Below, piece by piece: positions 7,752 through 44,071 of a DNA stretch of 54,367 nt. The notes beneath the pieces are model-generated. The model did not search any database, was not told the origin of the DNA, and worked only from the letters and a program-made list of their open reading frames with translations. A program made the translations under genes and the position numbers. This DNA is from Phycisphaerae bacterium. GTDB taxonomy: Bacteria; Planctomycetota; Phycisphaerae; Phycisphaerales; SM1A02. Positions within the stretch are counted from its first letter, which is position 1, and each line of letters starts with the position of its first letter. The DNA is taken from assembly GCA_002862305.1 (NCBI GenBank), contig PKCS01000073.1, positions 1-54,367 of the forward strand, in the 5' to 3' direction.

Positions 7752-7803
7752 GATGGACGTCCTGGACCTGTACGGGAGGGGCGTGGGGATCGTTCGCCGG
7801 GTT

Positions 7804-9855
7804 TCAGCCCTGTCCGCTGTAGATCGCGAGCTCCTTCCTCGAGAAGGCGGTGAATCCCACCAGGAGCGAGATGAAGGCCCACACGACCACCAGCCAGAAG
7901 AACTCGAGCCAGACCTCGGACCAGGGGATGACGCGGCCCTCGACCAGCATCTGGGCGGGCTGGATCTCACCGAAGCGGTTGAGGAGGGTGTGGACCAGGA
8001 ACGCGATGCCGGCGACCACCTGCTCCGCGAAGTTGGTGGGGTAGTACTGGGTCAGGGAGATCCCCAGGTAGGGTCCGATCGAACCGCCGATGAAGATCGC
8101 GAAGGACAGCAGGCAGGCGACCGGGAACGACAGGAAGCAGGCCGTGGAGACCGCGAGGACCCCGAGGAAGGCCAGCTTGAACCAGTCGACCAGCACCGCT
8201 CGCAGGAAGTTGATCTCGAAGTCGCTGACGTGGTACAGGACCTCGAGCTTGTCCTTGTCCCAGAAGAGCGAGTACTCCGCGGGGAAGAAGGTGTTGGTGT
8301 CGGCGTTGAAGCCCGAGTTGATCAGCTCGACCTCGAGGGTGCCGTCCTCCGAGACCAGCTCGGCGGGCACGCTGAGGAACGCTCCCACGGTCGGGACGTA
8401 CTGGAGGTCGATCCAGGTCTGGTCCTTGGGGAACCGGACGATGACGGGATGCACCTCGTGGGTGTCCGAGGATCCGCAGTGGAAGAGGTAGCGGAGTCTC
8501 AGCTCCTTGCCGCCCTGGCCATCGGGGCGGGGCAGCCCCGAGAAGGTGAGGGTCTTGCTCGCGCCCGGGGGGATCTTGCGCTGGTCGGCATCGAATTCCT
8601 TGGTGACCTCCCGGACGAGGTCGGCCCGGGCCCTGATCAGGGTCGTCTCGCCACGATCGATGCGCTGGCTCAGCTCGACGTCGGCATCGATCTGCCCGTC
8701 CACGATCTCGCGCAGCTGGCTCGGGGGGATGCGTTCGTAGTCCGCGACCTTGCCCGCGCGCGCGGTGAGGACCTCGGTGCGGACCGCGAGGTCGTCGAGC
8801 TCGTCGAGGGCGGGCCTGGTCTTGAGGACCTCGACGGAGATGAAGATGGCGGTGGAGGCGGTGAAGAGCCCGACGCCGGAGACCGCCATGATCCCGACCC
8901 ACTTGCCGATCAGGTACTTGAAGCGGTGCACGGGCTTGGTCATGACCTGCCAGATCTGGCGGTCGCGTATCTCGAATGCGACGGTGGAGCAGCCGAGGAC
9001 CACCGACATGCAGGCGAGGATCACGTAGGTCAGGGAGATGCTCCGGCTGAGGTAGGACTGGATCTGGTACCGGAGGGGTTCGGAGTCGTCGATGAACGAG
9101 GGTATGAGGGGCAGGATCACCACCAGCACGATGACGAAGACCACCGACACCCTCTGCCGAACCGCCTCGCGAACCACGCTCTGCGCGATCGCGAAGACCG
9201 GGTGGGGCGCGGACAGCAGCACCAGGGCGAGTCGGGTGAGCAGGGCGAAGGTCATCGCGAGGAAGCTGATCCCGATGATCGCGAAGATCGTCTCGAAGTC
9301 CGGAGGGGCCGTGATGGAGTCGGCAAGCGCGCTCTTGATCCAGAAGGGGATCGTCAGCAGGAAGGACCCCAGGCAGAGCAGGAGGAAGTTCCAACCGAGT
9401 CCGAACACCCCCACGAGGGCCAGCCAGAACACCGCACCCAGCCAGAGGGCAACCCCCAGTCCCGGGGATTCAAGGACGAATCCCGGAATCCATTCCGGCC
9501 GCATGGAGGAGATCAGGATGGTCGTGGCGTCGACCGGGGCGATGCAGCGCCCCGACTCGTCGAAGAAGCTGGGCGCGATCCCGGTGAGCCGGGGATCGCC
9601 GTAGGTGACCCCCGCGACGGTGACCGTCCCCTCCTCCACGAACTGGACCGCGGCGGTCTCACCCTTGGAGAGATCGGCCTCCCTCAGCACCTGGAAGACG
9701 CGCTGCCCGATCGAGTTGAACTGGTACGACTTGATCACCGCCGGCAGGAAGTAGGCGCTCGCCGCCAGCACGCCCACGACCACGAAGGCGATCCTGAAGC
9801 GCTTCGACTTCTGCAGATCGACCAGGCGGCGGTTCGTCTCGCTCAGCAGGCCCAT
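7804..9855 (-). CDS. ABC-2 type transporter permease with large extracytoplasmic domain
   Basis: A 683-residue polytopic protein. It has an N-terminal transmembrane segment (FRIAFVVVGVLAASAYFL), a cluster of helices over about 135-310, a large soluble region (about 330-520, with LRLRYLFHCGSSDTHEVHPV), and C-terminal helices ending near WLVVVWAFISLLVGFTAFS. This is the topology of ABC-2 permeases with an inserted extracytoplasmic domain. Its ATG overlaps the stop codon of the ATPase gene (TGATG), so the pair is coupled. The exported substrate is unknown. A separate permease lies divergently at 16124-17200. Confidence 0.82.
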   Translation of the reverse strand: MGLLSETNRRLVDLQKSKRFRIAFVVVGVLAASAYFLPAVIKSYQFNSIGQRVFQVLREADLSKGETAAVQFVEEGTVTVAGVTYGDPRLTGIAPSFFDESGRCIAPVDATTILISSMRPEWIPGFVLESPGLGVALWLGAVFWLALVGVFGLGWNFLLLCLGSFLLTIPFWIKSALADSITAPPDFETIFAIIGISFLAMTFALLTRLALVLLSAPHPVFAIAQSVVREAVRQRVSVVFVIVLVVILPLIPSFIDDSEPLRYQIQSYLSRSISLTYVILACMSVVLGCSTVAFEIRDRQIWQVMTKPVHRFKYLIGKWVGIMAVSGVGLFTASTAIFISVEVLKTRPALDELDDLAVRTEVLTARAGKVADYERIPPSQLREIVDGQIDADVELSQRIDRGETTLIRARADLVREVTKEFDADQRKIPPGASKTLTFSGLPRPDGQGGKELRLRYLFHCGSSDTHEVHPVIVRFPKDQTWIDLQYVPTVGAFLSVPAELVSEDGTLEVELINSGFNADTNTFFPAEYSLFWDKDKLEVLYHVSDFEINFLRAVLVDWFKLAFLGVLAVSTACFLSFPVACLLSFAIFIGGSIGPYLGISLTQYYPTNFAEQVVAGIAFLVHTLLNRFGEIQPAQMLVEGRVIPWSEVWLEFFWLVVVWAFISLLVGFTAFSRKELAIYSGQG

Positions 9856-11081
9856 CAGTCCGTCCGCTCCGAGTCACCCTTCGGGGCGGAATCACCCAGC
9901 AGGTCGTCGATGACGCTGCGGTCGACGGATTCGTCGGCCGCGGGGGCGGGCGCGGACTCCGCGGGTGCGGTGGGTGTGGCGGGTGTGGCGTCATCCTTCC
10001 CGGTGAGCAGGTCGTCGAGGACGGAATCGGTGGATTCCTCGACCCCGGACTGCGCGACCTCGTCACGAGCGCGTTCACGCGGCAGCTCCTCGGGTTCCGT
10101 GGAACGATCCCGGCTCAGCTCCTCGATGAGATCGCCGCCCTCGGCCGGCTCGTCATGGCGGAGGAACTCCGCGGTCGGCCCTCCCTGCCCGGCGCCGGCA
10201 TTCGCGAGCTGGTCGGCACGTGCCTCCTCGACGATGTTCATGAAGAAGTCCTCGAGGCGCTGCCGTGGCTGTTCGACCCGCTCGATGGTGACGTCGGTGT
10301 TCTCCTCGAGCACCTCGCCGATCCGAGCGACGGTCTCGGTTCCGATGCGCGGGAGCCTGATCACGGTGTGGTCGGTGTCCGCGAGGAGTTCCTCGCCGGT
10401 CCCCTCGGCCCGGATCCTGCCACCGTAGAGGATCACCATCCGATCGCAGACGTCCTCCACGTCGGAGAGGAGGTGGGAACTCAGCAGGATGGTGGTCCCC
10501 GAGCGGCCGAGCTCCTGGAGGAGCTCCTTGACCTGCCGGGTCCCGATGGGGTCGAGCCCGGAGGTGGGCTCGTCGAGGATCAGCAGGTCAGGGTCGTTGA
10601 TGAGGGCCTGGGCGAGGCCGATTCGACGAGCCATGCCCTTGGAGTACTCCCCCACCTTCCGGTGGGCCACCTCGCTGAGGCCGACCATGCTGAGCAGCTC
10701 GTCGACCCGTCGCTTGCGGATCCGATGGTCGAGCCCGAACAGCTTCCCGTAGTAATCGAGGGTCTCGCGGGCATCGAGGAAACGGTACATGTACGTCTCT
10801 TCGGGCAGGTAGCCGATGCGGTTCTTGATGGAGACGTCGGAGGGATCCTTTCCGAAGACGGTGAGCCGGCCGCGCGTCTTCCTCAACAGCCCGAGGATCA
10901 TCTTGATCGTGGTGCTCTTTCCCGAGCCGTTCGGGCCCAGCAGTCCGAAGATCTCGTTCTGGTCGATCTCGAAGTCGATGCCGTCGACCGCGCGCGCCTT
11001 CGACCTGAACCAGAAGTCGGTGAAGACCTTGGTCAGCCCCACCGCCTCGATGATCTTGAGGTTTGATGCGTTCTGGGCCAT
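9855..11081 (-). CDS. ABC transporter ATP-binding protein with long acidic C-terminal tail
   Basis: A 408-residue protein. Residues 1-288 are a standard ABC-2 exporter ATPase: Walker A GPNGSGKST (49-57), Q-loop region YLPEETYMYR, signature YSKGMARR (146-153), Walker B LLILDEP (166-172), D-loop SGLDP and switch histidine SSHLL. Residues 289-408 are an acidic, Pro/Ala-rich, probably disordered tail carrying three motifs of the form (L/V)(I/L)(D/E)(D/E)L at residues 318, 354 and 390, exactly 36 residues apart. Such tails are not part of the core fold and may bind a partner. The gene sits between the HflK-like SPFH gene (15 bp upstream) and the permease (overlapping). Confidence 0.93.
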   Translation of the reverse strand: MAQNASNLKIIEAVGLTKVFTDFWFRSKARAVDGIDFEIDQNEIFGLLGPNGSGKSTTIKMILGLLRKTRGRLTVFGKDPSDVSIKNRIGYLPEETYMYRFLDARETLDYYGKLFGLDHRIRKRRVDELLSMVGLSEVAHRKVGEYSKGMARRIGLAQALINDPDLLILDEPTSGLDPIGTRQVKELLQELGRSGTTILLSSHLLSDVEDVCDRMVILYGGRIRAEGTGEELLADTDHTVIRLPRIGTETVARIGEVLEENTDVTIERVEQPRQRLEDFFMNIVEEARADQLANAGAGQGGPTAEFLRHDEPAEGGDLIEELSRDRSTEPEELPRERARDEVAQSGVEESTDSVLDDLLTGKDDATPATPTAPAESAPAPAADESVDRSVIDDLLGDSAPKGDSERTD

Positions 11082-11096
11082 GCGCGGGCGCTCCTA

Positions 11097-12593
11097 TCAG
11101 TTGCCGTCGTCGGCCCGACCAAGGCCACCACTGGCGTCTCGTTCAAGCCGGCGTCCGGGACCCTCGAGCACCATCTGGCTCCGGCCCCACTGGAACCCCC
11201 TGATCATCTCCCCCTCGGCCTCGAGCGTCGCGAACCGCTTGCGCTCGAGCTCGGAGTCCCTCCGCAGCTGCATGATGTCCTCGGAGCTCTTGATCGCGAG
11301 ATCGAGCTTCGCGAGGTCGAGCGGCACCGAGAAGACCTCGAGCTGGTCGTTGCTGAACACGTCACGATACGCCTGCAACCACAGCCGCCGCGAGAAATCC
11401 CGGGGGTTTTCCCGGAAGGTCGGGGAGAGGGTGCGGATCTTCCGGAGCTCGCTGACCAGCCTGGTCTCGAGCTTCGACTGGTAGGCCTTCGCGCGGTTGA
11501 TGATCTGGGCGGCATCACCGCCGATGTCGCTGGCCTCGAAGCGGGCACCGATCGATGCCATGACCTCGTCGGCCCTCTGCTGGTCGCCGGAGGTCAGGGC
11601 GAGGGAGTAGTCGTTGATGAGGACCAGGAGGTCCGCATAGGCGCTTTCCCCGGCGACCCTCGTGAACTCGGTGGCGACCTCCTGCCCGGCGCGATCGATG
11701 GCCTCCTTGGCCTCCTCTCGTGCCTTCTGGACGTCCCTGAACTGGGAGCGGATCGCGAGGGGCTCGGTCGCGTCGCTGAGCTGCACCGTGACGAGGTCGA
11801 TCCCGGAGTCCAGGGAATCCAGGACCTCCTGGGCCCGCTCCTTGACCCGGGCGGAGGGCTCCTCGCGGAGGGTGGTGAACTGCTCCAGGGTCAGCTCGGC
11901 CGCGGAGAGGACCACCCCCCGCTCCAGCGCGTAGCGCACGAGCTTGTCCCCCTCGGTCGGTTCGAGCTCCCGGAGGTAGCTGGCGGCGTCGGCGATCTGG
12001 TAGGTCGCCTTGACGTCGCAGTGGGCGATGTCCCCACCGGCGGTGATCAGGTAGCCGTCGATGCCGGGCCGAAGCTGGGTGTTCTCGGATCGGTTCTCGT
12101 CGATGTTGGCCCGGGTGCCGGTCTCGGCGGACTTGGAATCGCGCGACATCGGCCAGAAGGAGCTTCGGAGTTCAACCTCCCGCGTCTGGGGGACGATCAC
12201 GACCTCCCCGACGGGATAGGGCCAGAACGGATGGAGCCCGGGGCCGATCTGCTCGAGGCCCTGGTCGCCCACGATCGCCCCGAAGCGGGTCCGGACGCCC
12301 ACGTCGCCTTCCTCGACGGTCTGGAAGCCGGAGAAGAGGAAGACCCCCAGCAGGGCGAGGATCCCGACCTGCAGCAGGCGGAAGCTGAGTCGCAACGCGT
12401 CCGTGAGGCTCTGATTGGCGGGGTCCATCGCCTCCCGGAGCCGGACGTCGGAACTGGCTTCGCTGGACACCACGAACTCCGCGGAAGCCTCGCGCCGCGG
12501 GGCCTCCTCGGAATGGGTGTCGTCGGGGGTGAGCCCATCGACCTCCGGGTCGCCGGCTCGATCCCTCTGCCTGTCGTCGTCCATCGGGGGCAT
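11097..12593 (-). CDS. SPFH/band 7 domain protein, HflK-like
   Basis: A 498-residue protein. An acidic hydrophilic N-terminus (about 75 residues) precedes one transmembrane helix (LLQVGILALLGVFLFSGF). The SPFH domain follows: VEEGDVGVRTRFGAIVG, GPGLHPFWPYPVGEV, and TAGGDIAHCDVKATYQI, as in HflK. A long charged helical region (about 270-430) should drive oligomerisation into membrane cages. ATG 12593 has AGGAGG 10 bp upstream; an in-frame TTG at 12599 is an alternative. It overlaps or abuts the preceding HflC-like gene. HflK/C modulate FtsH in other bacteria, but no ftsH is visible here; the ABC genes that follow suggest a link with export instead. Confidence 0.85.
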   Translation of the reverse strand: MPPMDDDRQRDRAGDPEVDGLTPDDTHSEEAPRREASAEFVVSSEASSDVRLREAMDPANQSLTDALRLSFRLLQVGILALLGVFLFSGFQTVEEGDVGVRTRFGAIVGDQGLEQIGPGLHPFWPYPVGEVVIVPQTREVELRSSFWPMSRDSKSAETGTRANIDENRSENTQLRPGIDGYLITAGGDIAHCDVKATYQIADAASYLRELEPTEGDKLVRYALERGVVLSAAELTLEQFTTLREEPSARVKERAQEVLDSLDSGIDLVTVQLSDATEPLAIRSQFRDVQKAREEAKEAIDRAGQEVATEFTRVAGESAYADLLVLINDYSLALTSGDQQRADEVMASIGARFEASDIGGDAAQIINRAKAYQSKLETRLVSELRKIRTLSPTFRENPRDFSRRLWLQAYRDVFSNDQLEVFSVPLDLAKLDLAIKSSEDIMQLRRDSELERKRFATLEAEGEMIRGFQWGRSQMVLEGPGRRLERDASGGLGRADDGN

Positions 12594-12595
12594 GT

Positions 12596-13570
12596 TCAAT
12601 CACCCTCCTTCGGAGCGTCCGTCGAGCCCTGGACGACGGGTGCGTAGTCGCTGGCGGGAATCGGAAGGCCGCTTTCGTTGGTCGGGGCGTCGAGGTCCAG
12701 GAGGTGGAACGGCGCCCGGGTGGTATCGGTGATGAACGTGGTGTTCCCGGTGAGGCTGTCCCGCAGGGTGTCGCGCCAGGCCAGGAGGATCGCGAGCTCG
12801 GAATCCTTCTGCATCTCGCGATAGAAGCGATCCGCCTCCTCGTTGCCCTGCGACTCGATCTGGGCCGCCCACTGGGTCGCGAAGTTGCGGATGGTGTCCG
12901 CCTTGGTCGCGGCCTGGCTCCGGAGGTTCTGCGCGGTGGCGTTCCCGCGCTGGCGCTCGAGCTGGGCCAGGGTCTGCTGGACGGCCGCCATGCGGCGTAT
13001 GACGGAGATGCTGGTCGACTCCGGGAGGATCATCCGGTTGATGCCGACCGCGACCGGTGTGACTCCGTTCTTCACGGTGTTCCTGAGGTCCGCGAGGATC
13101 TCTGCCTCGGCGTCCTGCAGGCGACTGTTCACGCCGATGAGGTCCTCGAAGTCGTAGCCGCCCACCACGCGAAGCGCGCCCTGGAGCTGCTGCTCGAGGT
13201 CGTTGGAGGCCCGGTTGACCGTCTCGTAGCTGTTGTAGAACTCGAGGGCGGGGCTCGATCCCGCGTCGCCGCCCTCCTCGCCGTCGACCTGCCAGAGCAG
13301 GAACGCCTCGATCATCACCTGCTGTCCGTCACGGGTGAGGACGGTCTCCAGTGGGGAGTCGATCAGCTGCTTCCGGGTGTCGATCTTCGTGATCCGGTCG
13401 ATGAAGAACGGAGCCTTGAAGTGCAGCCCCGGCTCCTGGATGACCGCGACGGGCTTCCCGAAGCGGGTCTTCACCGCGACCTCGTGGTAGTTGACGCTGT
13501 AGGTCGTGTTGAAGGCCACCAGGATCAGGATGATCAATGCACTGACGATGATGGTGAAGGTTCTGGTCAT
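12596..13570 (-). CDS. SPFH/band 7 domain protein, HflC-like
   Basis: A 324-residue protein with an N-terminal membrane anchor (FTIIVSALIILILVAFNTTYSV) and then the stomatin/HflC signature VNYHEVAVKTRFGKPVAVIQEPGLHFK, DRITKIDTRKQ and a helical segment rich in Gln and Arg (LERQRGNATAQNLRSQAATKADTIR). HflC-type proteins end in a short cytoplasmic or periplasmic tail, as here. ATG 13570 was chosen because the hydrophobic anchor follows at once; the upstream open frame overlaps the previous gene. Only a weak GGAA lies upstream. It is the middle of three consecutive SPFH genes. Confidence 0.87.
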   Translation of the reverse strand: MTRTFTIIVSALIILILVAFNTTYSVNYHEVAVKTRFGKPVAVIQEPGLHFKAPFFIDRITKIDTRKQLIDSPLETVLTRDGQQVMIEAFLLWQVDGEEGGDAGSSPALEFYNSYETVNRASNDLEQQLQGALRVVGGYDFEDLIGVNSRLQDAEAEILADLRNTVKNGVTPVAVGINRMILPESTSISVIRRMAAVQQTLAQLERQRGNATAQNLRSQAATKADTIRNFATQWAAQIESQGNEEADRFYREMQKDSELAILLAWRDTLRDSLTGNTTFITDTTRAPFHLLDLDAPTNESGLPIPASDYAPVVQGSTDAPKEGD

Positions 13571-13605
13571 TGGATTGGTTCCAGTGATGTGAGGGTGGGG
13601 CCCGC

Positions 13606-15828
13606 TCAGGACCCGCCGGAATCTGTGTTGATGTATTCCTGGATGTTGAAGCCGACGTCGGGCTCCCGCATCTCGATGCCCATGTTGACTCGTTCGGTGT
13701 CGGGGCCCAGCACGTACTTCATGCGGACCGAGTTCAGGGTCGAGGCGAAGACGTCCATGATGAGCCGCTGGCGGAAGAGTTCCGGCGCGGCACGGTAGGC
13801 GGTGGCCTGGCCCCGGACCTCGGCGGTCTCCTCCTGAGCCTCGGTCACGATCTCCCATCGGCGGGCCCGCGCCATGCTGATGAGGGTGGCGGCCTGGGCG
13901 TTGCCCCGGATGAGCTTGTCCTCGATCTCGGCCCGGAGTGCCTTGGCGTCCTCGGACTCGGTCCCCTCGCCCTTCTCCGTCTCGCGCAGCTTCGCGATGA
14001 GTTCGGTGATCTCGTCCGCGCTCTCGGAATCACCCACCAGCGAGGCCATGGTGACCGCGGCCTGGCGCCTGGCCTCCTCGATGATCTTTCGGGCGTTCTG
14101 GAGCTCGATGGACATGTCCTCGAAGCTGCCGGCCGCGGCGGGGGCGGGCTGCAGGAACGGAATCACGAGGGAAACCACCTCCACCCCGGTCCCGTAGCGG
14201 TCGAACGCATCCTGCACCCTGCCCTGGAGCCGTGCGAGGAGGGACTCACCCTTCGGGGAGAGCACGTCGTCCATGGGTTCCCTGGCCAGGAACTGGCTGA
14301 CCTCCCGGAGGGCGATGGTGTAGAGGGCCTTCTCCCGCATGTTCATGAGCGATCGCGGGATCTTGGCGTCACTGGAGAAGTTGAGGAACTCGACGAGCTG
14401 GCCGGCCTTGACCCGCCAGCGGATCACGATGTCCGCGTTCACCAGCGCGAACCTCGAGCCCAGTGAATCCTGGCTGGAGGCGGCCTTCCTCGGCCGGGGC
14501 GAGTCCGGGGCCGGCTCCGCCCCGGGGATCCCGGGCTCCGCCTCGTCGGCGTCCGTCATGGCGTCGTCGAATCGTTCGGTCGCCTCGATGCCCTCGACCG
14601 CCTTGCGCACCGTCTCGCTCATCGGCTGGGCGGCGACGAGGAACGACTTGCGCGCTCGCACCGAGTCGTCGTCGCTGCTCTGCCACCGGTTCACTTCCGG
14701 GTAGTCGAGGGCGGAGGGGCCGATGAAGAGCTCCTGGACCAGCCCGACGTCGTAGGTCTCGACGGTCTCGATCGGCCAGGGGAGCTTCCAGACCGCCTCG
14801 CCCTGGCGGACGTCCCCCACGATCTTGCCGAATCGGAGGCGGACCCCCTGCTGGTCGGGCTCCACGACGACGAGGGTGGAGAGGGCGAGGAGGGCGACCA
14901 CCGCGAAGACCGCCAGCCAGGCGAAGCTCCTGATCAGCAGTTGGTAGCCCCAGGAGCTGGTGATGTCGAACCCGAACTGGTAGTTCACCGCCTCGTTGAT
15001 GCTGCGGACGATGGAGTCGGGGGCCGCGAGGAGGCTGAGGACCCTTGAATCGAAGGCCGGTCGGGGGACTTCCCCACCGCGGCGGGGGCGGTACAGGTTG
15101 AGGATGAAGTTCAGGACGGTCTCGGCCGCGACCGCGAGCATGAAGACGAGGATGATCTGGGAGACCACCCGCATCGCCCCGGTGTTGTCGAACAGGGTGA
15201 GGATCACCCCGATGGCGATGGCCAGGCAGACCAGGGCGTTGCCGACCATGAACCCGGCACCACCCCGGAGGTTCTGCCATGCGGGCTGCTTGGACATGCC
15301 CGCGACGAAGCGGCTGAAGATGAAGGCGATCACCGCGAAACCGAGGCAGATCGCGATCTGCCAGCCCGGGGACTTTCCGATCTCGAAGCCCGCGTCCAGG
15401 TTCACGGTGCTCATCTCGTCGTCGAGGCGACCGAACCACACGAAGGTCATGATCGACAGGAGGACGAGCAGGCCGGCGGTGGCGAGGCTCGCGGTGGGGA
15501 CGATCCACTTGTGCATCTTGCGAAGCCGGCGCGCGGCGATCCCGGTCTCCTCGCGGCTCGCCTCGAAGATGGAGGCATCGGGCCGGGCCTCGCGCAGCTC
15601 GTCCTCCTCGAGGGCCTCGAGGCGTTCCAGTCGATGCTGCTGGAAGACGATGATCAGCACGATCCAGACCAGGAGCCCGACCAGCGGGTAGAAGGAGCCG
15701 ATCACGAGGGTCGAATCGCGCCCCAGGAGTCCGAAGAGCAGGAGGGTCAACCCGATCGCGAGCTGGAGCAGGAGCCCGAACCCGGCGACCCGGGTGGCCT
15801 GCTGGTATGCGAAGTGGTCGACTCTCAT
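13606..15828 (-). CDS. Polytopic SPFH/band 7 domain protein (third member of the cluster)
   Basis: A 740-residue protein combining about six N-terminal transmembrane segments (for example FGLLLQLAIGLTLLLFGLLG, WQIAICLGFAVIAFIF, IILVFMLAVAAETVL) with a further helix (LAVFAVVALLALSTLVVV) leading straight into an SPFH domain (EPDQQGVRLRFGKIVGDVRQGEAVWKLPWPIETVET). An insert of about 70 residues rich in Glu and Pro lies near 400-470. The last 200 residues are helical and charged. ATG 15828 (MRVDHFAYQQ) is preferred because the membrane region follows; ATG 15861 is in frame but adds a basic, low-similarity stretch. Neither has a good ribosome-binding site. It leads the operon and probably forms a mixed assembly with the HflC- and HflK-like proteins. 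Confidence 0.8.
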   Translation of the reverse strand: MRVDHFAYQQATRVAGFGLLLQLAIGLTLLLFGLLGRDSTLVIGSFYPLVGLLVWIVLIIVFQQHRLERLEALEEDELREARPDASIFEASREETGIAARRLRKMHKWIVPTASLATAGLLVLLSIMTFVWFGRLDDEMSTVNLDAGFEIGKSPGWQIAICLGFAVIAFIFSRFVAGMSKQPAWQNLRGGAGFMVGNALVCLAIAIGVILTLFDNTGAMRVVSQIILVFMLAVAAETVLNFILNLYRPRRGGEVPRPAFDSRVLSLLAAPDSIVRSINEAVNYQFGFDITSSWGYQLLIRSFAWLAVFAVVALLALSTLVVVEPDQQGVRLRFGKIVGDVRQGEAVWKLPWPIETVETYDVGLVQELFIGPSALDYPEVNRWQSSDDDSVRARKSFLVAAQPMSETVRKAVEGIEATERFDDAMTDADEAEPGIPGAEPAPDSPRPRKAASSQDSLGSRFALVNADIVIRWRVKAGQLVEFLNFSSDAKIPRSLMNMREKALYTIALREVSQFLAREPMDDVLSPKGESLLARLQGRVQDAFDRYGTGVEVVSLVIPFLQPAPAAAGSFEDMSIELQNARKIIEEARRQAAVTMASLVGDSESADEITELIAKLRETEKGEGTESEDAKALRAEIEDKLIRGNAQAATLISMARARRWEIVTEAQEETAEVRGQATAYRAAPELFRQRLIMDVFASTLNSVRMKYVLGPDTERVNMGIEMREPDVGFNIQEYINTDSGGS

Positions 15829-15909
15829 TCGGTGGGGGCTCGCGTGGGTGACTCGTGGCATCGGGAGGGGCGGGTCTCCCGAGGCAGGTGCGTCAGGACG
15901 ACACCGTCC

Positions 15910-15915
15910 ATTCTA
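15910..15915 (-). promoter_or_regulatory. Putative -10 element of the SPFH-ABC operon
   Basis: TAGAAT on the minus strand, 82 bp upstream of the chosen start and 49 bp upstream of the alternative. The same hexamer precedes fusA and uvrA. The -35 position is weak. The 295-bp divergent region 15829-16123 otherwise shows nothing recognisable. Confidence 0.4.
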
Positions 15916-16123
15916 TCCAGTAAGCGCGGGCGAGGTGCGACTTCGGGGGTCGTCGGGGGTCACCCCGGCCGATCGGGCCGTGCGGGGGTGGATACGTCCC
16001 GGGAGGCCCGGGAGTTCAGCATCCCGGGCGGGTGGGCGAAAATCCAGTCCCCCGCCCCGTCCCGAAGGTACCATTGGGTCCACTTCCGGGAACCATCGCC
16101 GAATCCACGAGGAACCGCCGGGC

Positions 16124-17200
16124 ATGTCCCTCCTTGAACAACTGCTTGCGATCTCGAGAAACACCTTCAAGGAGAGCATCCGGCAACCGGTCCTCTTCGT
16201 GGTGGCGATGTCGGCGACGCTGCTGATCATCCTCAGCAACCCGTTCGCGACCTTCACCCTCGAGAACGACCAGCGGATGTTCGTCGACATCGGCCTGTCC
16301 AGCGTCTTCCTCGCGGGCGTGCTCGGCTCGGCCTTCATCGCGACCAACGTGCTGACCAACGAGATCGACAACCGGACGGTGCTCACCGTGGTGTCGAAGC
16401 CGGTCCCCCGGCCGCTGTTCATCGCGGGCAAGTTCCTGGGGGTGGTGGCGAGCCTCACCGTCCTCATGAGCTACCTGATCATCCTGTTCATGATCGTGGA
16501 CGTGCACGGGTCGCTGGAAAGCGCGGCCGCCAAGTACCACATGCCGGTGATCGTGCTGGGTTCGGTGGGCTTCCTGCTGGCACTGGGGGTCGGGGTCTGG
16601 TGCAACTACTTCTACAACTGGACGTTCGGGGCGACGACCCTCGCGGTCCTCGTCCCGGTCTCCCTGCTGGTCTACGTGCTCTGCCTGGTGTTCGGCAGAC
16701 AGTGGGAGCTTCAACCCATCGGCACGGACTTCAAGGGCCAGCTCTGGATCGCCGCAGGCATGCTGTTCATGGCGGTCCTGGTGCTGAGCGCGATCGCGAT
16801 CGCGGCCTCCACCCGCCTCAACCAGGTGGCGACCCTGGTGGTGACCTGCTGCTTCTTCCTGCTGGGGCTGCTCTCGGACTGGCTCTTCGCCCGCCCCGCC
16901 GCGAACATGCTGGCCGTGGTCGAGGAACCGGACGCCGCCGCCGGCGTCGAGGGTTCCGCGACGATCATCGAGCAGGCGCCGGTGCTCATGGAGGGTGCGA
17001 GCGGGTTCCAGTTCTGGCTGCTGCAACGAGCGCACGACGTGGTGCCGAACTTCCAGGTCTTCTGGCTCGCGGACGCGGTCAACCAGGAGCACGACATCCC
17101 CCTGGCCTACATCCTCTCCACCGTGTCCTACGGGCTGCTGCTGATCGTGGCCGCGGTCTCCCTCGCGGTGATCCTCTTCCAGAAGCGCGAAGTCGGCTGA
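16124..17200 (+). CDS. ABC-2 type transporter permease
   Basis: A 358-residue membrane protein with about six helices: an early one (LFVVAMSATLLIILSN), then FLAGVLGSAFIATNVLTNEIDNRTVLTVVSKPVPRPLFIAGKF. In that segment the cytoplasmic loop motif (E-x-x-x-R-T-x-x-x-x-x-x-K-P-x-x-R) typical of ABC-2/NosY-type permeases is clear. Five more hydrophobic segments follow, ending in SYGLLLIVAAVSLAVILFQKRE. The start at 16124 has GAGGAA upstream. It is divergent from the SPFH-ABC operon and has no ATPase of its own nearby, so it may share the ATPase at 9855-11081; that is inference. Its stop codon lies 12 bp from a convergent gene. Confidence 0.85.
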   Translation: MSLLEQLLAISRNTFKESIRQPVLFVVAMSATLLIILSNPFATFTLENDQRMFVDIGLSSVFLAGVLGSAFIATNVLTNEIDNRTVLTVVSKPVPRPLFIAGKFLGVVASLTVLMSYLIILFMIVDVHGSLESAAAKYHMPVIVLGSVGFLLALGVGVWCNYFYNWTFGATTLAVLVPVSLLVYVLCLVFGRQWELQPIGTDFKGQLWIAAGMLFMAVLVLSAIAIAASTRLNQVATLVVTCCFFLLGLLSDWLFARPAANMLAVVEEPDAAAGVEGSATIIEQAPVLMEGASGFQFWLLQRAHDVVPNFQVFWLADAVNQEHDIPLAYILSTVSYGLLLIVAAVSLAVILFQKREVG

Positions 17201-37196: not shown

Positions 37197-38219
37197 TCAG
37201 CCGATCGTCTCGGAACCGAGATCCCGCGAGAGCAGCCCCTCGATGGCGCTCCGGGCGGGAAGCCCCTCGAAGAGCACCGAGTGGACGGCATCGAGGATCG
37301 GGACCTCGACGCCCCGCGCCCGGGCGAGTTCGACGATCGCCCTGGTGGTCTCGACCCCCTCCACCACGCACATCGACCCGGCCAGGTAGTCCTCGAGGCT
37401 CGTTCCCGCCCCGATCGCCTCGCCGCAGCTGCGATTGCGTCCGTCGGGGCTGAAGCAGGTGGTGGCGAGGTCCCCCACCCCGGAGATTCCGAAGAACGTC
37501 TCCCGGCGCGCGCCCAGGGCCGTCCCCAGTCGCACCACCTCGGAAAGTCCCCGCGCGAGCAGGGCGCTCTTGGCGTTGAATCCCTGGCCGAGCCCGTCGA
37601 GGATCCCGGCCGCGATCGCGATCACGTTCTTGACCGCGCCCGCGAACTCGACCCCCAGCAGGTCCTCGTGGGTGTAGACCCGCATCCACCGGGTGGTGAA
37701 GCAACCCTGGACCGCGCGGATCGCATCGCGGTCGTCGCCGGCGGCGACCATCGTCGCGATCATGCGGGCCGCCAGCTCGGTGGCGATCGTGGGACCGGAG
37801 AGGCAGACCCCTCGATGCCCCCGGTCGCCGAGCACGTCGCGGAGGATCTCGGTCGGCCGGAGCAGGCTGCCCACCTCGAGTCCCTTCGCAACGCTGACCA
37901 TGATCGGGGTGCCGACCAGTCCGTCACCGATGGATTGGAACACCGGGCGGATGTACTGGCACGGAATCGCGCAGACCACGAGGCGAGCATCGGCCAGGAC
38001 CGGTGCCGGGTCCGGACTCACGAGGATGGATCCGGGGACCTCGTAGCCGGGCAGTCTCGCGCTTCGGCGGGTCCGGGCGAGTTCGCGAACCTCGGCGTCC
38101 ATCGGCCCCCAGACGCGGACATCATGCCCGTTCTGGTGCAGCAGGTCGGCCATGACCAGTCCCATCTGCCCGTCTCCGATCACGGAGGCGGGGACGGGAT
38201 CGGGTGGTCGGTCGTTCAT
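37197..38219 (-). CDS. gpsA: Glycerol-3-phosphate dehydrogenase [NAD(P)+]
   Basis: A 340-residue GpsA. The nucleotide-binding loop reads VIGDGQMGLVMADLL (the usual GAGAWG is GDGQMG). ILVSPDPAPVL, VSVAKGLE (the conserved SxxKG), LSGPTIATELAARM, the catalytic FAGAVKNVIAIAAGILDGLGQG (with the invariant lysine of KN) and GISGVGDLATTCFS are all present. It makes sn-glycerol 3-phosphate for phospholipids, compatible with plsC in the same window. The start has AAGGAG 7 bp upstream. It converges with HPr (19 bp apart) and is divergent from the P-type ATPase. Confidence 0.94.
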   Translation of the reverse strand: MNDRPPDPVPASVIGDGQMGLVMADLLHQNGHDVRVWGPMDAEVRELARTRRSARLPGYEVPGSILVSPDPAPVLADARLVVCAIPCQYIRPVFQSIGDGLVGTPIMVSVAKGLEVGSLLRPTEILRDVLGDRGHRGVCLSGPTIATELAARMIATMVAAGDDRDAIRAVQGCFTTRWMRVYTHEDLLGVEFAGAVKNVIAIAAGILDGLGQGFNAKSALLARGLSEVVRLGTALGARRETFFGISGVGDLATTCFSPDGRNRSCGEAIGAGTSLEDYLAGSMCVVEGVETTRAIVELARARGVEVPILDAVHSVLFEGLPARSAIEGLLSRDLGSETIG

Positions 38220-38333
38220 CGGGGCTCCTTGCAGACGCAAAATCCGGCCGGGGCGGGCCGGTCGACGAACCATGGCCCGACCAGAGCGTACAAACTCCCG
38301 GCCCCAGCTGCCGCGAGTGGACTCCCGGGGGGC

Positions 38334-38373: not shown

Positions 38374-40428
38374 ATGAGCGATACCACGCTCTCACCCGTC
38401 AATCAGGAACCAACCGATCGGACCTGGGATGAGGGAGGCGCCCAGAGGCTGGAGCGCCAGCTCTTCTTCGCCCTGCTGGGCGGAATGCTGCTCCTCGTGG
38501 CCTGGATCGGGCGCTACGCCTTCGGATTCGACCAGCAGGTCGCGGACGTGGCGGCCACCTGCGGGGCGATCATCCTGGTGATCCCCCTCGCGAGGGGTGC
38601 CATCAGGGAGATCCTCTCCGGGACCCCCTCGAGCGACGCACTTGCCAGCCTCGCCGTGCTCGCGGCGATCGCGGTCGGCGAGTACCTCGCCGCCGGGTTC
38701 CTCGCGTTCTTCCTCTGGATCGCCGAGCTGGTGCTCTCGCGGACCGCCTGGGGCGCGCAGCGGGCGATTCGCGAACTGGTCGAGCTCACCCCGGACATGG
38801 CGCGGATCGTGGACGCGGAGGGCAACGAGCAGGAGACCGGCCTCAGGAACGTCGCCATCGGGTCGGTGGTCCGGGTCCGCCCGGGGGAGAACCTCCCGGT
38901 GGACGGGCGGATCATCGAGGGTCGCACGGACATCAACCAGGCCTCGCTCACCGGCGAGGCGATTCCCATCGAGGCGATCAAGGGCACCGAGGTCTACGCA
39001 GGCACCACCAACCTCACCGGCCAGGTCGACATCGAGGTGACCGCGATCGCGGGGGAGACCACGATCGGCAAGGTGGAGCAGCTGATCCGCGAGGCCGAGT
39101 CGACCAAGGGACGCCGTCAGGAGCTGATCGAGCGGCTCGCCTCCTACTACGTACCGGTGGTCCTGATGGTGGCGATCGCGGTCGGCTTCTTCACCGCGAA
39201 CGGGACGGATCCCGCGGCCCGCGAGGCGGCGGCGGTCCGGGCGATCACCGTGCTGGTGGTGACCTGCCCGGGAGCCCTGCTGATCGCCTACCCCACGGCG
39301 ATGGTCGCGGCGTTCGCGGCCGCGGCGAGGCTGGGCATCATGATCAAGCAGACCAGGACCCTCGAGTCCGCGAGTCGGATCGACACCGTGGTGCTCGACA
39401 AGACGGGGACCCTGACCACCGGGAAGTTCGCGGTCAGCCGACTGGCTCCCGCGGAGGGCGTCGAGGGTGCGATGCTGCTGCAGCGCGCCGCGGACGCCGA
39501 GCAGTCCTCGAACCACCCCCTGGCCCGAAGCATCCTCGAGACCGCCGAGCGGGCGAGGATCACCCCGGGATCGCTTCGTTCCTACACGGAGGTCCACGGA
39601 CGAGGCGTGAAGGCGGAGACCGAGCAGGGCGTGGTCTTCGCGGGACGTCCCGACTGGCTCGCGGACATGAATCCGGGCATCCGTTCGGAAATCGCCGACG
39701 TGGAGCAGAAGATCGAGGGCATGTCCGGGGTCCACGTGATGCTCGACGAGCAGTACCTCGGCGCGGTGGGCCTCGAGGACGCCCTCCGGTCCAACGCGGT
39801 GGAGGCGGTCTCGGGGCTGCGGGAGGCCGGGGTCCGCAGGGTCTGCATCTTCACGGGGGACCGCCTCTCGGTCGCGAAGCGGGTGGGGCAGACCGTTGCG
39901 GTCGACTCCATCGAGGCGGAATGCCTGCCGGAGGAGAAGCACGAGGAACTCAAGTACCTGATCTCCAAGGGTCACCGGACCCTGGTGGTCGGCGACGGCA
40001 TCAACGACGGCCCGATCCTGGCGTCCGCGGACGTCGGGGTGGCCATGGGGCTGACGGGCTCTGACATCGCCACCAACTCCGCCGGGGTCGCCCTGATGAA
40101 CGACGACCTCCGACACCTGCCGTTCCTGCTGGACCTGGCGAGGCGGACCCGCGGGATCGTTGCGCAGAACATCGCGGCCAGCCTCGTGCTCGCGGTGGTG
40201 GGACTCGCGCTGGCCGCCACCGGACAGATCGACATCTACGTGACCCCCTTCTACCAGGCGGTCGCCTACGTCTTCGTGATCGCCAACAGCCTTCGGCTGG
40301 TGCGGTTCGGCGAGGACTTCGCCGAGGAGGAACAGCGCCGGGTTGCGGAGGAGCAGGCCAGGCAGGCTCGTCCCAAGCGGCGCAACCGATCCGCGAGCCC
40401 GGGCCAGGTCGCCACGTCCGGCGGTTGA
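38374..40428 (+). CDS. P1B-type (heavy metal) ATPase with atypical Cys-Pro-Gly transmembrane motif
   Basis: A 684-residue ATPase with no N-terminal heavy-metal-binding domain. The actuator has SLTGEAIP (TGEA 193-196). The core has DKTGTLTTG (D342), the P1B nucleotide-binding SSNHPLA (HP 381-382), TGD at the start of FTGDRLSVA and hinge VGDGINDGPILASADVGVAMG. The transmembrane metal motif is VVTCPGALLIAYP: Cys298-Pro299-Gly300 (codons TGC CCG GGA at 39265-39273), where copper and zinc pumps have CPC. The last helices (VFVIANSLRL) also lack the Met-Ser-Ser pattern of Cu pumps. Transport specificity is therefore unclear. GGAG precedes the ATG by 8 bp. Confidence 0.9.
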   Translation: MSDTTLSPVNQEPTDRTWDEGGAQRLERQLFFALLGGMLLLVAWIGRYAFGFDQQVADVAATCGAIILVIPLARGAIREILSGTPSSDALASLAVLAAIAVGEYLAAGFLAFFLWIAELVLSRTAWGAQRAIRELVELTPDMARIVDAEGNEQETGLRNVAIGSVVRVRPGENLPVDGRIIEGRTDINQASLTGEAIPIEAIKGTEVYAGTTNLTGQVDIEVTAIAGETTIGKVEQLIREAESTKGRRQELIERLASYYVPVVLMVAIAVGFFTANGTDPAAREAAAVRAITVLVVTCPGALLIAYPTAMVAAFAAAARLGIMIKQTRTLESASRIDTVVLDKTGTLTTGKFAVSRLAPAEGVEGAMLLQRAADAEQSSNHPLARSILETAERARITPGSLRSYTEVHGRGVKAETEQGVVFAGRPDWLADMNPGIRSEIADVEQKIEGMSGVHVMLDEQYLGAVGLEDALRSNAVEAVSGLREAGVRRVCIFTGDRLSVAKRVGQTVAVDSIEAECLPEEKHEELKYLISKGHRTLVVGDGINDGPILASADVGVAMGLTGSDIATNSAGVALMNDDLRHLPFLLDLARRTRGIVAQNIAASLVLAVVGLALAATGQIDIYVTPFYQAVAYVFVIANSLRLVRFGEDFAEEEQRRVAEEQARQARPKRRNRSASPGQVATSGG

Positions 40429-40531: not shown

Positions 40532-40581
40532 GATGATGTGTGAACGATTTGAACGTTTTCAACCTCAGCGAGGAACGAACC

Positions 40582-41853
40582 ATGACCACCCTGCTTCTGA
40601 GCGCCGCCACCCTGAGTCTCGCGGCCGTCGCCAATTCCGGATCCACGAACGACACAATTCCCGCGGTGGCCTCGTCTTCCGATCGCCTGAGCACCCTGGT
40701 CGCAGCGGTCCAGGCCGCAGACCTCGGGGGCGCCCTCTCCGGAGACGGACCGTTCACGGTGTTCGCCCCGACCAACGAGGCCTTCGAACGACTCGACGAC
40801 GGCGTGATCGAAGGCCTGCTCGAGGAACCCGGACGGGGCACCCTGACCAGGATCCTGACCCACCACGTCGTTCCCGGCCGGCTCTACGCGCGTGACCTTC
40901 TCGAGGTCGACTCGGTGGAGACCCTTGCCGGCACCGAGCTCTCACTCGAGGGCATCCGCGGACGCCTGCTGGTCGAGGACTCCATCGTGGAGACCGCTGA
41001 CGTGGACGCGAGCAACGGCGTGGTCCACCTGATCGACCGCGTGCTGGTCCCCCCGACCGTGGTCGCCCCGCTCCAGCAGCTGCTGACCAAGGCGATCGAT
41101 CGTGGCGTCCCGCTGTACAACAGCGGCGACCCCGAGGCGTGCTGCGCGGTCTACGCCACCGCGCTCGACGCGGTGGCGCTCGGGACCGGCTGGAACCTCT
41201 CACCGATGCAGGCCGAGAACGTGCGCCGTGCGATCGAGGACGCGGACGCGATGATCGACGCGGGTTCGCGGGCCTGGGCCTACCGCCGGATCATGGACGC
41301 GCTCATGGAGTCCCGGCAGATGACGACCAGCCGGCCCGCGCCCGCCGACGAGTCGGCACGGAAGGTCTTCACCTTCGACGACCGCTCGGAGATCCAGGAC
41401 TGGCGGATCGTCCTCGACGGCGTCATGGGCGGACTCTCCACGGGCAACCTCAGAATGACGGGGGATTCCATGCTGTTCACGGGCGAGACCTCGCTTCGCA
41501 ACAACGGCGGATTCTCCTCGATCCGTTGCGGGGTCGAGGCCGACACGTTCTCCGGTTCCGACTCCATCAAGCTGCGTGTCCGGGGTGACGGCCGCACCTG
41601 GATCATGGGCACCCGCAAGAGCAACTCCATGGGAGGCGACTCCTACTGGTACCGCTTCGAGACCGTCGACGGCGAGTGGATGGACGTGGTGATCCCCATC
41701 CGGGAGATGCAGCGGCACTTCTTCGGGCAGCGTGCCCCGGGCTCGATCAGCCCCGAGGAGGTGAAGGCGATCGAGTTCTACATCTACGACAAGAAGGCGG
41801 GCCCCTTCTCCCTCGAGGTCGACTCGATCGAGGGGGTCCAGGCGAACGCCTGA
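40582..41853 (+). CDS. Exported fusion of fasciclin (FAS1) and CIA30 domains
   Basis: A 423-residue protein with a probable signal sequence (MTTLLLSAATLSLAAVA). Residues 30-165 are a FAS1 domain: LSTLVAAVQAADLGGALS, GPFTVFAPTNEAFERLDD, and LTHHVVPGRLYARDL with NGVVHLIDRVLVPP, all hallmark blocks. The middle (about 170-250) is unassigned with a CC pair. From about 258 a CIA30 domain begins (KVFTFDDRSEIQDW, DGVMGGLSTGNLRM, LRNNGGFSSIRC), a beta-sandwich first described in complex I assembly factor NDUFAF1. GAGGAA lies 8 bp upstream. Its exported role (adhesion or carbohydrate binding) is inferred. Confidence 0.87.
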   Translation: MTTLLLSAATLSLAAVANSGSTNDTIPAVASSSDRLSTLVAAVQAADLGGALSGDGPFTVFAPTNEAFERLDDGVIEGLLEEPGRGTLTRILTHHVVPGRLYARDLLEVDSVETLAGTELSLEGIRGRLLVEDSIVETADVDASNGVVHLIDRVLVPPTVVAPLQQLLTKAIDRGVPLYNSGDPEACCAVYATALDAVALGTGWNLSPMQAENVRRAIEDADAMIDAGSRAWAYRRIMDALMESRQMTTSRPAPADESARKVFTFDDRSEIQDWRIVLDGVMGGLSTGNLRMTGDSMLFTGETSLRNNGGFSSIRCGVEADTFSGSDSIKLRVRGDGRTWIMGTRKSNSMGGDSYWYRFETVDGEWMDVVIPIREMQRHFFGQRAPGSISPEEVKAIEFYIYDKKAGPFSLEVDSIEGVQANA

Positions 41854-42986: not shown

Positions 42987-43061
42987 GGTGCATTGCCTCC
43001 GGTCGGCGTGGTGATGGTGGACCTCAGGGCGCCATGGTAGCGAGGGATCCGGGGAAATTCC

Positions 43062-43067
43062 TATACT
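43062..43067 (+). promoter_or_regulatory. Putative -10 element of the CaCA antiporter gene
   Basis: TATACT ending 11 bp before the ATG at 43079; the expected transcript would have a leader of only about 5 nt. No good -35 is visible. Confidence 0.5.
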
Positions 43068-43078
43068 CGGACGCAGTG

Positions 43079-44071
43079 ATGATTCCGGATCTCGGCCAAA
43101 TTTCGTCGGGAGTGGCCGTCCTCGTGATGCTCGGGGGAGCCGGCGTGCTCGTCCTCGGTGCCCACCTGCTGGTGACCGCGGCGGTGGCGCTGGCCAGGCG
43201 AGCGAGGCTCTCCCCGTTCTTCATCGGGGCGACGATCGTCGCGGTCGGGACGAGCGTGCCGGAACTCGCCGCCTCGCTCTACGCGAACCTCACGGATCGC
43301 GAGGGGATCGCGCTGGGGAACGTGCTGGGCTCGAACGTCGCCAACCTCGGGCTGGTGCTCGGGGCGGTCGCGCTGGCCCGGCCCATCCCCCTCAAGGGCC
43401 GGAGCATGGGCCGTGACCTCCTCGTGGTGGTGCTGGTCGGTCTCGTTCCCCTGCTGGCGCTGCCCTTCGACAACCAGCTCACCCCCTGGCACGGCGTGGT
43501 CCTGCTGCTCCTGCTCGCCGGGTACTTCTACTGGACGAGGCAGGCGAGGCACGACTCCCCTCCCGAAGCACGACCGGACCAACCGGCCACCCGGACCTGG
43601 TTGATCGGGCTCGGGCTGGTGCTGGGCCCGGTGATGCTGGTCGCGGGGTCCCAGTTGTTCGTGGAAGGCGCGGTGGTGGTGGGACGGGGGATCGGGGTGC
43701 CGGAAACCGTGATCGGCCTCACGGTGGTCGCCTTCACCACCTCCCTCCCGGAACTCGTCACCAGCATCTACGCCGCGCTGAAGGGGCAGCAGGAGCTCGG
43801 GGTCGGGAACATACTCGGGTCGTGCATCATGAACGTGCTGGGGATCCTCGGGCTGGTCCTGCTCTTCGGTTCGATTCCCGTGGACCCGCAGATCTACGCC
43901 GTGGACCTGCCCGCGCTGCTGATCGTCTCGGTCGCCGCGGTCCCGATCCTCGTCAGCGGCGGACGGGTGATCCGGATGGAGGGGCTGCTCCTCCTGCTGA
44001 TGTACCTCGCGTACGTCACGTTGCTCTTCGTACTGGTCCCGGGCTGGTTTCCGGAAGGTCCGGGGTCCTGA
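43079..44071 (+). CDS. Calcium/sodium antiporter (CaCA family, YrbG-like)
   Basis: A 330-residue membrane protein made of two inverted repeats. Alpha-1 is [20 protein letters not shown] and [16 protein letters not shown]; alpha-2 is [19 protein letters not shown] and [16 protein letters not shown], the paired motifs with acidic residues that coordinate cations. About ten helices are visible. The ATG at 43079 was chosen because TATACT lies just upstream; an in-frame GTG at 43034 precedes that hexamer. It should exchange Ca2+ for Na+ or H+ at the inner membrane. It converges on mnmA with 11 bp between. Confidence 0.92.

Follow-up and report, generated by a model that had tools for sequence, protein, structure and literature searches.

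The window, the whole stretch of 54,367 nucleotides from a Phycisphaerae bacterium that was analysed here, encodes a P1B-type ATPase of 684 residues, in which the tripeptide at the break of the membrane helix M4 is CPG and further residues of the membrane ion site are replaced as well. On balance, the sequence features of this protein suggest an active P1B pump in which the membrane ion site has been rebuilt and the cargo has changed.

The CPG-type ATPase gene and its product

The gene is located on the forward strand at 38374-40425, followed by a stop codon at 40426-40428, and is identified from its frame and motifs, its matches to TIGR01525 and TIGR01512, and its orthologues. A wrong frame or start was considered and rejected, because the alignments of several relatives begin at residue 1 of the protein that starts with the ATG at 38374, although the frame is open from 38152. 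In this frame, the codons TGC CCG GGA at 39265-39273 (forward strand) specify Cys298-Pro299-Gly300, as the first-pass annotation had read them. The TGE, DKTGT, HP, and GDGIN motifs are located at residues 193, 342, 381 (H381-P382), and 540 respectively. When the protein is scored with the NCBIfam models, it exceeds the cut-offs of TIGR01525 for heavy-metal P-type ATPases (508 versus 346 bits) and TIGR01512 for the cadmium type (426 versus 313.5 bits), but not that of TIGR01511 for copper (348 versus 397 bits). The annotation had also described the pump as one without an N-terminal metal-binding domain, and this description is correct, because Pfam detects E1-E2_ATPase and Hydrolase only and the model has its first membrane helix from residue 21 onwards.

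The AlphaFold2 model of the protein (26 sequences, mean pLDDT 72.6) contains eight long membrane helices, and its M4 helix is broken at 297-299, namely at the CPx tripeptide. The fold comparison of this model is led by P1B structures, with 7r0g at the top (Z 29.9, rmsd 5.2 over 629 residues), and the best sequence match in the PDB is 7qbz (the P1B-4 pump sCoaT, 291 bits). The features that mark the protein as a member of the P1B family are the catalytic motifs, the TIGR01525 score, and the predicted MA and MB helices with six core helices. The genome containing the window, which is 96.6% complete, has three E1-E2_ATPase genes, encoding the CPG pump, a copper-like CPC pump, and an SPC pump, and no ZntA-like pump is seen among these three.

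Conservation of the CPx tripeptide

From 215 loci matched over residues 298-300, 31 were removed as identical in residues 51-350 of the match and 7 as paralogues, which left 177 rows, and omission of one too-short row of group A gave 176 orthologues. These orthologues were aligned with 14 comparison P1B ATPases (7 named E. coli or plasmid records and 7 planctomycete paralogues) and grouped by their identity to the window protein, with group A at 64% or above (95 rows), group B at 50-64% (32 rows), and group C below 50% (49 rows). The tripeptide of group A is CPG in 88 rows, APG in 6, and TPG in 1. Both P299 and G300 are therefore conserved in 95 of the 95 rows and C298 in 88, a degree of conservation that is beyond chance or error. 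Group B contains 12 CPS, 6 VPA, 5 CPG, 4 CPT, 4 CPA, and 1 APS, and group C contains 38 CPC, 3 CPT, 3 CPS, and one each of CPG, CPL, TPC, GPS, and YPD. C298 is absent in 7 of the 95 rows of group A and 7 of the 32 rows of group B, and CPC does not occur among the 127 aligned orthologues that exceed 50% identity. The most extreme CPx forms seen are YPD and GPS, which belong to two distant planctomycete orthologues (L210 and L209 respectively).

This spread of tripeptides is not a habit of planctomycete genomes, because 47 other P1B genes of these genomes remain CPC (28), SPC (16), CPH (2), or TPC (1), with Cys at the third position in 45 of the 47. This control set consists of 40 rows picked by hand from more than 80 paralogue rows and the 7 planctomycete paralogues of the comparison set.

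Other residues of the ion site

In the alignment, C392, C394, K693, D714, E202, and E217 of E. coli ZntA correspond to C298, G300, A607, Q628, A106, and L121 of the window pump, and N785, M813, and S817 of E. coli CopA correspond to A607, Q628, and Y632. The Cu-type residues in M5 and M6 are thus absent while the HP motif is kept, in agreement with the earlier reading. The codons for L121 in M2 and Q628 in M6, as computed from the residue numbers and the gene start, are located at 38734-38736 and 40255-40257 respectively on the forward strand. Glu at position 121 is present in 14 of the 14 comparison P1B ATPases, in 46 of the 49 rows of group C, and in 43 of the 44 control paralogues that cover this position (3 of the 47 do not), and it is found in none of the 95 rows of group A or the 32 rows of group B. 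This Glu was set in the present analysis as one of the P1B criteria, and its functional role is one that we presume from the copper-pump literature; the window pump has Leu instead. The name that we associate with the residue equivalent to E217 has no match in the accessible part of PMC9433437.

Positions 628, 632, and 306 differ between the groups in a similar manner. Position 628, which is Asp (D714) in ZntA, is His in 48 of the 49 rows of group C and 26 of the 32 rows of group B, and Gln (67 rows) or Tyr (28 rows) in group A. Position 632 is Ser in 35 of the 49 rows of group C, Asp or Glu in 26 of the 32 rows of group B, and Tyr in all 95 rows of group A. Position 306 is Thr in 35 of the 49 rows of group C, Ser in all 32 rows of group B, and Tyr (67 rows) or His (28 rows) in group A. 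The residues at 306 and 628 of group A form the pairs Y-Q (64), H-Y (24), H-Q (4), and Y-Y (4) in a raw count (n=96). However, this pairing is not evidence of coupling, because only two supported independent pairs are obtained on the tree and neither of them differs in 628. The coupling of C300 with E121 or H628 likewise yields just two supported pairs on the tree, which are uninformative.

The site was also scored by six residues, which are C392, C394, D714 (or His or Glu), K693, E202 (or Asp), and E217 in the ZntA numbering. The score is 1 for the window pump, 1 (88 of 95 rows) or 0 (7 rows) for group A, 2 (25 of 32 rows) or 1 (7 rows) for group B, 2-5 for group C, and 2-6 for the comparison P1B ATPases. 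The score falls in other subfamilies too, because the TPC-type paralogue has only 2 of the 6 residues.

In a study of sCoaT (eLife 2021, PMC8880997), H657 is called crucial for function and compared with K693 of SsZntA, in that it probably serves as a built-in counter-ion. E120 of sCoaT, which overlays E202 of SsZntA, is described there as a release residue, and its mutation to Ala (E120A) lowers the activity. The window pump would, by this account, be without the counter-ion and the release aid, because both positions are replaced.

Comparison with the known P1B types

The window pump shares features with several known P1B types, but does not fit any of those compared. P1B-4 (SPC, HEGxT) includes the best sequence match in the PDB, and the His of HEGxT in the SPC paralogues aligns with the M6 His of the group C orthologues. 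These paralogues are, however, outside the clade that includes the window pump. In the window pump, SPC is replaced by CPG and HEGxT by QAVAY (His by Gln, or by Tyr in other members of its group, and Glu by Ala), and there is no M2 release Glu. P1B-2 (ZntA and CadA; 4umv and 4umw) has its fold and catalytic motifs in common with the window pump, which also passes TIGR01512, but the CPC, M5 Lys, and M6 Asp of this type are not found in the window pump, in which the residues equivalent to C394, K693, D714, E202, and E217 are all replaced. P1B-1 (Cu+; CopA) provides the best fold match to the model, but the window pump has no YN, MxxSS, or second Cys, and is below the TIGR01511 cut-off. P1B-5 is characterized by TPC with QE..D in M6; this motif is seen in a paralogue (L126), and the window pump does not fit it. 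Further P1B subfamilies with their own motif sets are reportedly distinguished in the 2014 work of Smith et al. The planctomycete orthologues of group C are on the same side of a branch with a support of 100 as the window pump, and CPC, His628, and the M2 Glu are retained in 38, 48, and 46 of their 49 rows respectively; many of them are encoded in an SPFH/ABC operon, unlike the window pump.

CPG is also found outside the group of the window pump. Five of eight haloarchaeal rows were examined, and these plasmid-encoded P1B ATPases (L221 and L224-L227) have CPG but, unlike the window pump, retain HEAS in M6 as well as the Glu of M2. The gene for each of them is located behind a small gene for a heavy-metal-associated domain, and the one that was placed in the tree groups with the references. 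In addition, one distant planctomycete orthologue (L202) has CPG alone among CPC and CPS rows, which points to a separate origin. CPG alone is not diagnostic of the cargo, because the haloarchaeal P1B ATPases with CPG otherwise resemble ordinary metal pumps. According to a review of haloarchaea (PMC3600143), a zntA deletion strain grows poorly with Ni, Cu, Zn, and Cd, and ZntA is filed there under another transporter type; neither CPC nor CPG is printed in the accessible part of this paper, so that haloarchaeal zntA is not assignable to the CPG pumps. Thus, CPG as such is not new. What is unusual is that the second Cys and the M2 Glu are missing at the same time, together with the M6 His or Asp in group A and with the first Cys in 14 of the 127 rows of groups A and B. 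A literature search, which covered mainly papers outside subscription and is correspondingly weak, yielded no description of this pump group or of CPG as a P1B type.

Catalytic integrity, distribution, and phylogeny

The DKTGT, TGE, and GDGxND motifs are present in all long rows of groups A (95), B (32), and C (49), and HP is present at the aligned column in all rows of groups A and B and in 49 of the 49 rows of group C. The dN/dS ratio of the window gene against six relatives is 0.05-0.24, these values being rough because synonymous sites are near saturation (pS 0.52-0.66). Within M4 (residues 285-316), pN is 0.00-0.05 while pS is 0.44-0.72. The gene is not decaying and is under purifying selection.

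An orthologue is present at E <= 1e-150 in 109 of the 121 genomes sampled from the family of the window, and in all 82 genomes of this family with a completeness of 90% or more and a contamination of 5% or less. At E <= 1e-110, a match is found in 222 of the 298 genomes sampled from the class and in 75 of the 392 sampled from the phylum. Among the best 80 of 158 loci in a scan of genome contigs, 69 are labelled as planctomycete, 10 simply as bacteria, and one as Limnohabitans.

A maximum-likelihood tree was constructed by a quick method from 108 orthologues, thinned at 83% identity within each tripeptide state, and the 14 comparison P1B ATPases, with the trait columns of M4 and M6 left out. 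The planctomycete orthologues are separated from the comparison P1B ATPases with a support of 100, as are groups A and B together and group A by itself, and group B has a support of 82. Deep placements are uncertain, because group C as a unit has a support of only 16 and some rows of group C and of the comparison set have long branches. The best tree requires 19 tripeptide changes, with 5 switches between Cys and another residue at 300 and 8 at 298. It gives no series of tripeptide states, because groups A and B are sister groups. The proposal that the pump belongs to a distinct P1B group is therefore borne out by a conserved clade of its own with full support and without CPC, but the part of this proposal that took CPG as the mark of a non-soft ion is not, because CPG also occurs in haloarchaea and in L202.

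Genomic neighbourhood

The pump gene has a divergent neighbour at 37197-38273 on the reverse strand, which we take to be a gpsA-like glycerol-3-phosphate dehydrogenase gene. A gpsA match is found in 92 of the 96 pieces of group A and 25 of the 32 pieces of group B, and in 74 and 24 of these pieces respectively, the best match is on the opposite strand, no more than 600 bases upstream. Directly downstream, 40540-41853 encodes a single protein that combines a fasciclin domain and, after it, a CIA30 (complex I intermediate-associated) domain, and a few genes further, 43034-44071 encodes a protein of the sodium/calcium exchanger family. When 25 of the 45 flanking clusters were read by eye, no metal-linked or cargo-telling neighbour was recognised for groups A and B. 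Rfam detects no riboswitch in the window, its sole match being a tRNA at 507-593.

In group C, the pump gene is commonly located between SPFH genes and an ABC ATPase gene. According to rows read by eye, SPFH/Band 7 genes are present in 35 of the 49 pieces, some of which are short, and the pump gene directly follows an SPFH gene in 21 of the 49, mostly with the ABC ATPase, a permease, and a conserved protein with no Pfam match after it; in some genomes of this group it is at the other end of the cluster. Loss of this cluster from the genome of the window was considered and rejected, because a Band_7 search located it inside the window. It consists, in the same order and on the reverse strand from 5805 to 15861, of genes for a long SPFH/Band 7 protein (13606-15861; Band_7, 33% identity over 731 columns to a group C member), a second (12596-13597; Band_7, 27% over 308 columns) and a third SPFH/Band 7 protein (11097-12599; Band_7, 30% over 353 columns), an ABC transporter ATPase (9855-11081; ABC_tran, 57% over 288 columns), an ABC-2 permease (7804-9855; ABC2_membrane_2, 27% over 483 columns), and a conserved protein of approximately 640 residues with no Pfam match (5805-7748; 30% over 526 columns), together with a divergent gene for another ABC-2 permease on the forward strand (15794-17200; ABC2_membrane_2, 32% identity to a group C member). 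This assembly of three SPFH/Band 7 proteins, an ABC-2 exporter with its ATPase and two permeases, and a protein with no Pfam match, at 5805-17200, is conserved in planctomycetes.

No pump gene is inserted in the cluster of the window. It is absent from the gap between the third SPFH gene, which ends at 11097, and the ABC ATPase gene, which starts at 11081, and a distance of 22.5 kb separates the nearest SPFH gene from the start of the CPG pump gene. It is probable that the pump gene has left the SPFH/ABC operon, since the cluster keeps its order without it, although in some genomes of group C the pump gene is at the other end of the cluster. Of the 45 searched genomes with both genes, 12 carry the pump gene and the long SPFH gene on the same contig and no more than 30 kb apart (families f1, 4 of 9; f2, 0 of 21; f3, 0 of 1; f4, 2 of 3; f5, 4 of 4; f6, 2 of 7). 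For f1-f4 together the count is 6 of 34, different contigs, which account for many of the misses in draft genomes, being scored as not near; in one genome (G033), no orthologue reaches the cut-off. These counts led to the rejection of linkage as a general rule, and, because the two genes are so seldom within 30 kb, a present functional tie of the pumps of groups A and B to the SPFH/ABC cluster is a guess.

Discussion

The first-pass annotation had suggested an altered ion, possibly not a soft metal. The present results strengthen the case for an altered ion, because the second Cys, the M6 ligand or counter-ion, the M2 release Glu, and a further M2 Glu shared by nearly all compared P1B ATPases are all gone together, but CPG alone is no marker of a non-soft ion. 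The caution over a non-soft ion is reasonable, but it rests on more than the tripeptide.

The window pump is best explained as a vertically inherited export pump of Phycisphaerales. Its ancestor would most likely have been a CPC-type pump with an M6 His, like the members of group C encoded beside the SPFH and ABC genes, from which it would differ by Gly at 300, Thr306 to Tyr or His, His628 to Gln or Tyr, Ser632 to Tyr, and Glu121 of M2 to Leu. The pump would run an ordinary P-type cycle, with phosphorylation at DKTGT and dephosphorylation with TGE, and would export a cation that does not need two thiolates and is probably neither Cu+ nor Zn2+. The M4 break may hold this cation through C298 where that residue is present, through backbone carbonyls, and through a cluster of Tyr, His, and Gln at 306, 628, and 632, with D88 and, where present, E118 as putative residues of the path. 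Several observations count against this explanation. Retention of C298 in 88 of the 95 close orthologues is odd if no thiophilic ion mattered, the haloarchaeal CPG pumps resemble ordinary metal pumps, the TPC-type paralogue also scores low at the site, no telling neighbour is recognised in the 25 flanking clusters read and no riboswitch in the window, and nearness to the SPFH/ABC cluster is limited to 6 of the 34 genomes of f1-f4.

The main rival to a rebuilt site, which we regard as possible but clearly less probable, is that the cargo is still a thiophilic divalent metal (Zn, Cd, Co, Ni, or Fe), exported by means of one Cys and other ligands, CPG being a tolerated variant. The retention of C298, the TIGR01512 score, the heavy-metal-associated domain gene adjoining each of the five haloarchaeal CPG pump genes, and the lack of a ZntA-like pump among the three E1-E2_ATPase genes of the genome are all consistent with it. 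On the other hand, C298 is missing in 7 of the 95 close and 7 of the 32 middle orthologues, and the M6 His or Asp, the M5 Lys, and two M2 Glu positions are lost in the window pump; in sCoaT, the E120A form is less active and H657 is called crucial (PMC8880997). A bolder form of the changed-cargo reading, which seems rather improbable, is that the pump has left metal transport altogether and handles a non-metal cargo, such as an organic cation (e.g. a polyamine), a proton, or a lipid-linked group, with the SPFH/ABC system from which the gene would originate, the Tyr/His/Gln cage replacing the Cys site. It is more doubtful still that the protein has ceased to transport and is retained as an ATPase that regulates the SPFH/ABC membrane system or helps to assemble it. 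Seven close orthologues with none of the six site residues and the SPFH genes in 35 of the 49 pieces of distant orthologues would fit such a role, but the high conservation of M4 and the presence of P299, G300, and Y632 in all 95 close rows suggest a working membrane site. A private substitution or sequencing error, which CPC in close homologues would have indicated, can be dismissed as practically negligible, because the 88 close orthologues with CPG come from many separate assemblies and CPC is not found above 50% identity.

The CPx tripeptide is the usual key for sorting P1B pumps by metal. In the clade of the rebuilt-site pump, CPC, CPS, CPT, CPA, CPG, APG, TPG, VPA, and rarer forms occur within one set of orthologues with intact catalytic motifs. 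This clade may therefore provide a natural variant set for asking which membrane residues set the cargo. It is also a warning that a gene present throughout this bacterial family may be wrongly labelled by names such as "cadmium family heavy metal-translocating ATPase", that of the model whose cut-off it passes.
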